From: Pseudooceanicola sediminis
GTDB taxonomy: Bacteria > Pseudomonadota > Alphaproteobacteria > Rhodobacterales > Rhodobacteraceae
Assembly (NCBI RefSeq): GCF_003575965.1
Contig: NZ_QWJJ01000001.1
Coordinates: 186,001 to 250,000, forward strand
Reading direction: 5' to 3'
DNA length: 64,000 bases
This document shows, piece by piece, positions 6,946-57,307 of this stretch. The position numbers and the translations under genes are program-made. Positions within the stretch are counted from its first letter, which is position 1, and the number at the start of each line of letters is the position of its first letter. Under the pieces are notes generated by a model. The model was not told the DNA's origin. It searched no databases and saw only the letters and a program-made list of their open reading frames with translations.

Positions 6946-6972
6946 ACCGATACCGATACCGATACCGACGTG
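6946..6972 (+). repeat. GATACC hexamer run ending in ATACCGACGT
   Basis: Three head-to-tail GATACC hexamers end in ATACCGACGT at 6962-6971. This is the same 10-mer found in the 11-bp-phased arrays at 7081, 22234, 30835 and 57175. It lies just after the MTHFR-family stop codon and about 120 nt before the array at 7081. Confidence 0.7.
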
Positions 6973-7080
6973 TGCCGCGCCCTCCGGCGCCGCGCAGCCC
7001 GCGCCATCGTTCACCTTTTCATGGGGCCTGATCCCCGATAGGTCTGTTGTTCCGTCGGCGGCTGCGGCGCGACCAGCTTG

Positions 7081-7122
7081 CACCGACACGATACCGACGT
7101 CATACCGACACGGGTACCGACG
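7081..7122 (+). repeat. Phased ACCGAC array A
   Basis: CCGAC occurs at 7083, 7094, 7105 and 7117 (spacing 11, 11, 12), with ATACCGACGT at 7091-7100. It ends 21 nt before the ATG of the methyltetrahydrofolate methyltransferase gene, so it overlaps the promoter or 5' leader. It belongs to the same family as the arrays at 22.2, 30.8 and 57.2 kb. Confidence 0.75.
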
Positions 7123-22018: not shown

Positions 22019-22233
22019 GGCTAATCTCCTTGTCTCATCCGGACCACCCGGATCCCTGCTTCGACAATAATGCTGCGCGCGCGAAAAGCGAGGGGGTCGC
22101 GCCATCTGGCCACGGGCAATCGCCACTTCGTGACCCCGCGCGAGGCGACGAGAGGCGCCAGGACCCGCCCCGGGGCAAGCGCGGGCGTCGGCGCGCAAAC
22201 GGCCTGGACACCCGCGAACGCCGTGCGGATACC

Positions 22234-22290
22234 ACCGCCCAAACACCGTACAGATACCGTTCAGATACCGCTCAAATACCGACGTTGCGG
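22234..22290 (+). repeat. Phased ACCG array B (best copy)
   Basis: ACCG recurs at 22234, 22245, 22256, 22267 and 22278, exactly every 11 bp. The middle units read CAGATACCGTT-type, and the last is ATACCGACGT (22276-22285) followed by TGCGGAT. It lies 216 nt upstream of the bdhA start and 223 nt upstream of the peptide-binding-protein start. Confidence 0.85.
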
Positions 22291-22317: not shown

Positions 22318-22346
22318 AAAAAAAACGCCAGCGCGAAGCTGGCGTT
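22318..22346 (-). terminator. Intrinsic terminator facing left
   Basis: A perfect 9-bp stem with a 5-nt loop is followed in the leftward sense by a T8 tract (A-run 22318-22325 on the + strand). Confidence 0.85.
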
Positions 22347-22393
22347 CAGTTATTGAGGCAGGTTTCATACAGGCAAGAAACCTATCGAGCAGT
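22318..22393 (-). ncRNA. Candidate small RNA, leftward
   Basis: Read leftward, a promoter-like TATAAA (22405-22400) is followed by a stem-loop (AGGTTTC/GAAACCT, arms 22377-22383 and 22360-22366) and then an intrinsic terminator. The terminator has a 9-bp stem AACGCCAGC/GCTGGCGTT at 22324-22346 and a run of eight T in the leftward sense. No protein gene lies upstream of this terminator on the same strand, so it must end a short transcript of roughly 75 nt or a longer antisense one. The -35 match is weak. Confidence 0.45.
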
Positions 22394-30774: not shown

Positions 30775-30834
30775 GGCGTACAAGCGTACGGCGTATTAAC
30801 GCCGACGGCGGCCGTGCCCGTCCACTGACGCAAT

Positions 30835-30870
30835 ACCGTCAAGATACCGACGTAGGACCGACAGTGCGAT
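30835..30870 (+). repeat. Phased ACCG array C
   Basis: ACCG at 30835, 30846 and 30857 (11-bp steps). Units are AATACCGTC, AGATACCGACGT (10-mer ATACCGACGT at 30844-30853) and GGACCGACAG, then TGCGATTTG, which matches the 3' flank of arrays B and D (TGCGGAT, TGCGATT). Confidence 0.8.
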
Positions 30871-57001: not shown

Positions 57002-57307
57002 GGCGTTCCCCTTCAAAGGTCGTCCCATTCTGCCACGCCGCATCGCCACTCGCCAGCCATAGCGCGGGTCCCGCAAGGCAGGACGCCGCCAGGGGCGCCT
57101 TGGCTGGACCTTGGGCCGCTGCGCCGGTCGCCCCGTTAACCTTTACCTGCGGAGGCGCGACACCGGCGCAAAGTACCGTTCAGTTACCGCTCGGATACCG
57201 TTCAGATACCGACGTTGCGATTTCGCGATTTCCTCAGTTAACGTGCAGAATTCGCCAAAACAGCACCGCAGGCGCACCGACACGCCGTGCGGTCGCTTTT
57301 CCGGGCG
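57002..57307. other. Intergenic region holding array D
   Basis: 306 nt between the agmatinase stop and the DUF1499 start. Apart from array D and the TTTCGCGATTTCC stretch behind it, nothing is recognisable. Confidence 0.5.
57175..57222 (+). repeat. Phased ACCG array D
   Basis: ACCG at 57175, 57186, 57197 and 57208, exactly 11 bp apart. Units GTACCGTTCA, TTACCGCTCG, ATACCGTTCAG and ATACCGACGT (57206-57215), then TGCGATTTCG. The CCGTTCAG linkers match array B. Confidence 0.85.

Follow-up and report, generated by a model that had tools for sequence, protein, structure and literature searches.

Evenly spaced arrays of an 11-bp repeat in Pseudooceanicola sediminis and other Rhodobacteraceae, candidate sites of a chromosome-organising or self-marking system

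The window analysed here is a 64-kb stretch (contig C1, 186001-250000) of the 4.44-Mb draft genome of Pseudooceanicola sediminis (G000), and positions are those of the window unless a contig is named. In the divergent gap between a 3-hydroxybutyrate dehydrogenase gene (- strand) and the gene of a family 5 solute-binding protein (+ strand), the tetramer ACCG occurs five times, at 22234, 22245, 22256, 22267 and 22278, with a step of exactly 11 bp and an end formed by ATACCGACGT-TGCGGAT, just as the initial annotation had described. The five occurrences of the 10-mer ATACCGACGT that it listed (6962, 7091, 22276, 30844 and 57206) were recovered by exact match, all five on the + strand and all five between called genes. 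The features of the window are the following:

22232..22286, + strand, array of five 11-bp units (copy B): CCACCGCCCAA, ACACCGTACAG, ATACCGTTCAG, ATACCGCTCAA, ATACCGACGTT
57136..57141, + strand, TTAACC flank, upstream of the array at 57173
57173..57215, + strand, four-unit array with units GTACCGTTCAG, TTACCGCTCGG, ATACCGTTCAG, ATACCGACGT; first ACCG array position 57175
57216..57242, + strand, 3' segment of the element, TGCGATTTCGCGATTTCCTCAGTTAAC, weakly conserved, following the last unit and ending here in GTTAAC
30833..30864, + strand, three-unit array with units ATACCGTCAAG, ATACCGACGTA, GGACCGACAG; array start 30835
7080..7120, + strand, array of three in-phase units and a fourth displaced by 1 bp; array start 7082
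6946..6971, + strand, ATACCGACGT (10-mer at 6962) closing a 6-bp repeat (ACCGATACCGATACCGATACCGACGT), with no 11-bp array

The array at 57173..57215 is flanked by genes for a DUF1499 protein and an agmatinase, both on the - strand. It has an orthologue of equal orientation in Pseudooceanicola spongiae, as does copy B, and its stretch also matches many further places on the P. spongiae chromosome. The array at 30833..30864, located downstream of the gene for an NADP-dependent isocitrate dehydrogenase, corresponds to a place in P. spongiae that retains two perfect units, and the one at 7080..7120, which precedes a methyltetrahydrofolate methyltransferase-like gene by about 25 bp, corresponds to an imperfect four-unit array (both judged by eye). 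Just past the copy B array there is a terminator-like hairpin, AACGCCAGCGCGAAGCTGGCGTT, with a T run on the - strand (22325-22347), and the hairpin sequence also stands at the P. spongiae orthologue of copy B. A tRNA-Ser (CGA) at 2065-2154 is the sole tRNA found in the window and its sole Rfam match at gathering scores.

Within the window, the pattern TACCGN6TACCG gives 7 matches, compared with 0 in each of 100 dinucleotide shuffles. Over the whole P. sediminis genome ATACCGACGT occurs 166 times (102 forward and 64 reverse), against 4 (2 and 2) for the reversed pattern, and ACCGN7ACCGN7ACCG occurs 153 and 97 times on the two strands, with control counts of 3 and 2. The excess over chance noted earlier is therefore borne out, while the exclusive use of the + strand is a property of the window and does not extend to the genome. 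The proposed family of four loci proved far too small, the sites being chromosome-wide; moreover, the copy at 6962 belongs to a 6-bp repeat and the fourth unit of the array at 7082 is off by one base. When all 4-mers were counted at eight step sizes on both strands of 750 kb of this genome, ACCG at step 11 stood far ahead with 41 triples, compared with a mean of 0.0 at the seven other steps, and the runners-up, TACC and ATAC, are parts of the ACCG unit.

The sites lie mostly between genes, as delimited by gene calls from our codon-usage script, which was trained on the P. sediminis genome and applied to all genomes. A comparison of intergenic with coding sequence, proposed as a check by the initial annotation, gave a density of TACCGACGT that is 33 times higher between genes than within them. 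Strict arrays, defined by three in-phase ACCG of which two are preceded by T, are intergenic in 23 of 24 cases in P. sediminis and 19 of 20 in P. spongiae (42 of 44), where intergenic sequence represents 11% and 13.9%, respectively. A looser weight matrix gave 31 matches in P. sediminis, 22 between genes and 9 in called genes; among the latter, one has four in-phase ACCG (C1:340233) and two are within 12 bp of a gene edge. Accordingly, the statement that the 10-mer is always intergenic holds for the window, and genome-wide some copies (3 of 32 entries) fall in called genes.

The usual element consists of four units, GCACCG-N5, ATACCG-N5, ATACCG-N5 and ATACCG-ACGT, followed by the weaker 3' segment, and there are about 100 sites each in P. 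sediminis and P. spongiae. In Roseovarius and Salinihabitans many elements extend over about 130 bp and comprise TTAACC, the array, a T-rich stretch, GTTAACC and GATTCG. TTAACC/GTTAAC motifs are 9.1 times denser beside arrays than in the rest of the intergenic sequence in P. sediminis (11 in 2907 bp) and 10.6 times denser in P. spongiae (12 in 2211 bp). Some loci carry further repetition: at C1:380813-381002 (L014-L016) the 10-mer occurs three times, 90 bp apart, as tandem copies of a whole imperfect array, and at C27:18159-18328 three times, 80 bp apart. Contig C2 carries an identical array and flank at both ends (L019, L028), which implies that the assembly was interrupted at a repeated sequence. 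Towards the 3' end of the gap C1:380553-381463, and in the orthologous gap of P. spongiae, there is a short ORF starting MTTLIVIVGV, followed by a GC-rich hairpin and a T run, which by eye resembles an amino-acid leader peptide attenuator.

Conservation at orthologous loci, the other check that had been proposed, was assessed between P. sediminis and P. spongiae HQ09 (G315/G316). In the stretches compared, 310 reciprocal best hits with a median protein identity of 91% gave 288 shared adjacent gene pairs. Strict arrays are present in 9 of these gaps in each genome, and of the 11 array-bearing gaps 7 are common to both, compared with a mean of 0.66 and a maximum of 4 in 5000 draws from a length-weighted null. 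Array orientation is equal in all seven, and in the remaining four gaps the second genome shows, by eye, an imperfect, partial or duplicated array. The arrays are thus conserved in P. spongiae, and neither of the two refuting outcomes named by the initial annotation occurred. Identity within the units was determined for the seven pairs together with L025/L112 (8 orthologous pairs, 32 units), giving 0.94-0.97 for the ACCG positions, 0.78 for the A, 0.81 for the T and 0.34-0.59 for the linker positions. The linkers of units 2 and 3 are as dissimilar between orthologues (0.35 and 0.35) as between non-orthologues (0.36 and 0.35), but resemble each other more within a genome (0.51 and 0.49 in P. 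sediminis; 0.43 and 0.56 in P. spongiae), and those of unit 1 retain some orthologous likeness (0.68 versus 0.57). These values indicate that the arrays retain their position, phase and core, whereas most linkers adopt the style of their own genome.

The distribution of the arrays along the chromosome is more even than expected by chance. The P. spongiae chromosome holds 96 arrays of the pattern CACCGN6TACCGN5ATACCG (control 0), with a gap CV of 0.727 compared to 0.985 under random placement (P=0.00035), and for the 67 arrays on 10 contigs of P. sediminis none of 5000 within-contig simulations was equally even. The same within-contig test gave modest values for P. atlanticus 22II-s11g (G299; 43 arrays, P=0.027) and genome G312 (38 arrays, P=0.023), and no significant evenness for the 13 arrays of G298 (P=0.11). 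Under a null that draws real intergenic regions, evenness was retained by 24 arrays of P. sediminis (P=0.011) and 20 of P. spongiae (P=0.0007), while the control features GTTAAC (P=0.34 and 0.065) and an AAATAC-type motif of P. sediminis (P=0.94) were not even. Site density ranges from one per 26 kb in P. sediminis (median gap) to one per 45 kb in P. spongiae (mean gap, 96 arrays counted). Regarding strand, the 96 P. spongiae arrays show no replichore polarity (strand runs, z 0.43; best two-arc polarity, P=0.13), and a bias like that of KOPS or Chi was not observed.

For these tests arrays were merged by hand from the listings and contigs with fewer than three arrays were excluded. The P. sediminis set covers the contigs with ACCG triples up to C13, plus C17, after removal of two positions at contig ends (C2:72 and C2:192952), of C6:1, which lies about 90 bp from C6:94, and of C12:31503, which does not belong to the family. 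In G175 position 102993 was dropped (called coding), in G298 one position was added from the exact-match listing, and in G145 the single array on C7 and three positions whose units do not resemble those of the family (C6:180024, C10:270788 and C13:53377) were dropped; G285 was kept outside the evenness tests.

The position of the arrays relative to genes was examined for 150 arrays (36 from P. sediminis and 114 from relatives), of which 143 are intergenic and 127 have both neighbours known. These 127 run along both genes in 47 cases and against both in 32, and lie in convergent gaps in 39 and in divergent gaps in 9, so that array direction is independent of gene direction. On the complete stretches, tandem, convergent and divergent gaps hold 26, 10 and 6 of 42 arrays, compared with 50%, 16% and 34% of intergenic bases, which means that divergent gaps (27% of gaps) are depleted.

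This distribution bears on three other explanations. The arrays could constitute the operators of a large regulon, through which a response regulator of the OmpR/PhoB type, or a different winged-helix protein that binds 11-bp direct repeats in tandem, controls the genes nearby; PhoP and CarH are described as binding 11-bp-step repeats three or four in a row (PMC4832192, PMC9304148), and an array stands shortly upstream of lpd in several genera. Such a regulon is nevertheless unlikely given the depletion of divergent gaps in both sets, an array direction that does not track that of the genes, the even spacing, and CenR and CarH motifs, as they are given in the cited reports, that do not resemble the array units. 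Between the two functions that the initial annotation offered, an operator array or a chromosome-organising site, the second fits copy number, spacing and divergent-gap depletion better. Protein-covered arrays might also act as roadblocks at gene ends, stopping transcription or separating converging transcription units. The share of convergent gaps (10 of 42 arrays for 16% of intergenic bases; 39 of 127 in the wider set) is in line with this, but most arrays lie in tandem gaps (26 of 42) and some in divergent ones, and the even spacing would be left unexplained, which makes a roadblock distinctly improbable. An RNA element transcribed in untranslated regions would agree with the closeness of many arrays to genes. 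Against it stand the independence of array and gene direction, the folding of two window arrays on both strands, which was no better than that of shuffles (z 0.00, 0.84, 0.84 and -0.74), and the lack of Rfam matches at gathering scores at the window arrays; this explanation is already disfavoured and its probability is close to negligible.

To look for a candidate binder among the neighbours, we clustered the 1150 proteins whose genes lie no more than 4 kb from an array, and no likely specific binder recurs among them. The 14 largest groups have 3 to 5 members and, as far as the beginning of one sequence per group shows, appear to be common or housekeeping families with no relation to one another: ArfB-type release factor, amidohydrolase, SDR, ABC ATPase, dihydrolipoamide dehydrogenase, a GyrB-like protein (4 loci) and cold-shock proteins.

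In GTDB contigs, ATACCGN5ATACCGN5ATACCGACGT was found in at least 112 stretches; the matches listed belong mainly to Rhodobacteraceae of the Roseobacter group (Pseudooceanicola, Roseovarius, Shimia, Salinihabitans, Silicimonas and others), and a few of those listed are labelled only Rhodobacterales or Alphaproteobacteria. The distribution is patchy. TACCGN6TACCGACGT is present in 17 of 295 genomes of the family, with 1 to 167 copies, and absent from 278. Within the genus, 6 of 23 genomes have an exact match and 5 more than one. Since 18 of these 23 have 0 or 1 match and 278 family genomes none, the role of the arrays is dispensable or otherwise filled. The distant congener G192 shares 25 conserved gene pairs with P. 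sediminis, only 2 of which bear a P. sediminis array; by eye, G192 holds a degenerate four-unit array at one of these gaps and none at the other. In a 400-kb sample of G192 the weight matrix finds a single array, and no family of 11-bp triples is present.

Patchy copy number (0 to 167 exact matches), local tandem duplication (C1:380813-381002) and scarcity in divergent gaps are features that would be expected of REP-like or MITE-like repeats with no host function. REP/BIME are dispersed foldback elements at gene ends whose copy number varies by species; the window arrays, on both strands of the two that were folded, have no unusual fold. The positions are moreover fixed in two species, the core is conserved against free linkers, and no gene family is strongly recurrent beside the arrays. 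A mobile repeat is already disfavoured, and we regard it as very improbable.

The sequence of the units varies between lineages, and other genera combine the 11-bp architecture with different units. The reversed control was raised in a few genomes, and in G175, G145 and G285 this revealed units of the form GCCA[T/G]ACGC (GCCAKACGC), also at 11-bp steps, with 53, 47 and 30 matches and controls of 1, 2 and 4, respectively; raised reversed controls were also seen in G215 and G262. Of 21 distinct GCCA-type matches examined 14 are between genes, and a few are not family members. Arrays of this type are evenly spaced both in G175 (32; P=0.019) and in G145 (29; P=0.007). To survey one locus, we inspected the 150 bp that precede lpd in each of 30 selected genomes, comprising 10 with ACCG arrays, 3 with GCCA arrays and 17 others. 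A significant lag-11 repeat is present in 14 of the 30 (6 of 10, 3 of 3 and 5 of 17, respectively), 13 of them at the floor of P=0.0025 (400 shuffles) and G242 at 0.0075 with no clear unit; no other tested lag is as high as lag 11 in any of the 14. Twelve of the 17 genomes not picked for arrays have no array at lpd. The unit types found there are ACCG, including a CACCG form (G080), GCCA, GGTGCACG (G200), TATGTATG (G063) and GARTTAYG (G001), the TATGTATG and GARTTAYG types at one locus each.

The pattern GGTGCACGN3GGTGCACG occurs in 9 of 295 genomes (15 copies in G200, 10 in G018, 7 in G038 and 1 to 3 in six), with a control of 0 throughout. Of 24 distinct GGTGCACG arrays examined 22 are between genes, and some have a TTAACC or GTTAACC...GATTCG flank. 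Genome G261 carries both ACCG-type and GGTGCACG-type arrays, which shows that dialects can coexist. The dialect labels do not follow the tree of the single gene lpd (29 of 30 rows, G125 omitted; 14 of 26 inner branches open): they are scattered, requiring 15 changes compared with a shuffled mean of 13.9, and 182 of 200 shuffles were as low. A second dispersed intergenic element of Rhodobacteraceae, approximately AAATACTCCGGGGGAG and in several cases followed by a GC-rich inverted repeat, was noticed by eye. It is found in P. sediminis at C17:97638-97979 and upstream of lpd in L401, L405, L409, L410, L416, L417, L424, L430 and others, often occupying the lpd gap where other genomes carry the array, and has no match in the window.

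The dialects, the even spacing and the many copies would also fit self-recognition or uptake sequences, which mark a cell's own DNA for uptake, recombination or defence machinery, in the manner of DNA uptake sequences or Chi. BLAST searches of 72,556 plasmid records produced nothing credible (no match for one query at E<=1; 3 partial, unrelated matches for two queries at E<=10), and a single query against 50,697 phage records had no match, which agrees with this explanation; these tests are weak because linker and dialect differences lower BLAST sensitivity, and among 24 stretches of viral contigs the element is resembled clearly by one (L356) and perhaps by another (L349). One site per 26-45 kb is sparse for uptake, and no uptake sequence built from four units is known to us. 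An uptake or self-recognition role, taken by itself, is quite unlikely.

Taken together, some marine Rhodobacteraceae carry dozens to about 100 short four-unit arrays with an 11-bp step, evenly spread and kept in position in a related species, the letters of which depend on the lineage, and this pattern suggests that a DNA-binding protein uses them to mark or organise the chromosome as a whole. It is very likely that the arrays are a family of sites of a DNA-binding protein. Each array would accommodate about four protomers of a single protein that binds cooperatively and head to tail, and from the anatomy we infer one protomer per 11-bp unit, all on one face of the helix. The cooperative binding along one helix face suggested by the initial annotation gains indirect support from the 11-bp phase and core conserved at orthologous loci, the variable linkers and the phase that other units keep in other genera; the protein itself did not emerge from the neighbourhood search. 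The assembled complexes may act on the chromosome as a whole, in folding, anchoring, segregation or self-marking, and not on single genes, which appears most likely because the roughly 100 sites are evenly spread and under-represented between divergent genes. Their recognition sequence would drift and the sites of a genome would follow, which would produce lineage-specific dialects while the 11-bp scaffold stays fixed, and many lineages may lack or have lost the system. For this combination of head-to-tail cooperative sites, chromosome-wide role and drifting recognition, in which binding and function are deduced, we see about an even chance. Counting against a chromosomal role, copy B itself lies in a divergent gap, and the lpd arrays, within 150 bp upstream of the gene, could be used by a regulator.

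We tentatively propose, with a little less than even confidence, a new chromosome-organising or self-marking system of Rhodobacteraceae, with evenly spaced four-unit 11-bp sites that number about 100 in the richest genomes and change together within a genome, a drifting reader protein and at least three genome-wide dialects, probably five, which in part occupy the same chromosomal positions. Known chromosome-wide protein sites are few and come mainly from model bacteria. The present class can be recognised from sequence alone; its arrays are evenly placed, stay in position and vary their letters in concert. One family could therefore serve to test which factors determine how far apart chromosome-organising sites lie, and likewise how a DNA-binding protein changes in step with a hundred sites, and the presence or absence of arrays combined with their dialect provides a phylogenetic profile for finding the protein.

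Mobile repeats, an RNA element and the motifs of CenR, CarH and LexA fit the arrays poorly. The alphaproteobacterial LexA box is GTTC-N7-GTTC; the window has two matches, neither at an array, for a chance mean of 1.59, and elsewhere in P. sediminis TTCAG linkers can, by eye, create GTTC-N7-GTTC in some arrays. DNA uptake sequences, KOPS, Chi and matS exist in many dispersed copies with a chromosome-wide role and are single short words; uptake sequences have dialects, and KOPS and Chi are strand-polar. The arrays are likewise multi-copy and dispersed, but in P. spongiae (96 arrays) they are not polar as KOPS and Chi are. Direct-repeat arrays as such are known, but we know of no set that covers a chromosome at even intervals and keeps a fixed phase while its dialect changes with the lineage, and no description of such an element stood out among the open PubMed Central papers listed by our searches.

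Several characterized proteins recognise direct repeats of similar geometry. A CarH tetramer binds three or four tandem 11-bp direct repeats, nnnnTnnACAn, at carotenoid gene promoters (PMC9304148); the step is the same, but TnnACA is absent by eye from the consensus units. CenR of Rhodobacter sphaeroides uses two half-sites of the direct repeat TGA-N8-TGA at promoters (PMC9275681), and has in common with the arrays the 11-bp step and the bacterial order but not the core, which differs from ACCG; by eye, the window array units contain no TGA-N8-TGA, although some units of relatives, GTGATACCG, fit it. The retrieved text on S. meliloti CenR and on KfrA describes nothing closer to the arrays. BldC, a promoter regulator of Streptomyces, binds cooperatively and head to tail to a variable number of direct repeats (PMC5859096), but its units are of 9 bp with an AT-rich motif. 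PhoP of the OmpR/PhoB family recognises a 7-bp motif with a 4-bp spacer and binds in tandem up to three and four units (PMC4832192), thus with the same 11-bp step, although at promoter operators and with another motif. In the case of StbA of plasmid R388, the stbDRs are two sets of five 9-bp repeats spaced by 2 bp, which again gives an 11-bp step (PMC3098194). These repeats form a plasmid locus with the unit TTGCATCAT and not a chromosome-wide set, and the available part of that report mentions no dialects; like the arrays described here, they are direct repeats in 11-bp steps, and the single protein that binds them serves to position DNA within the cell (PMC3098194).
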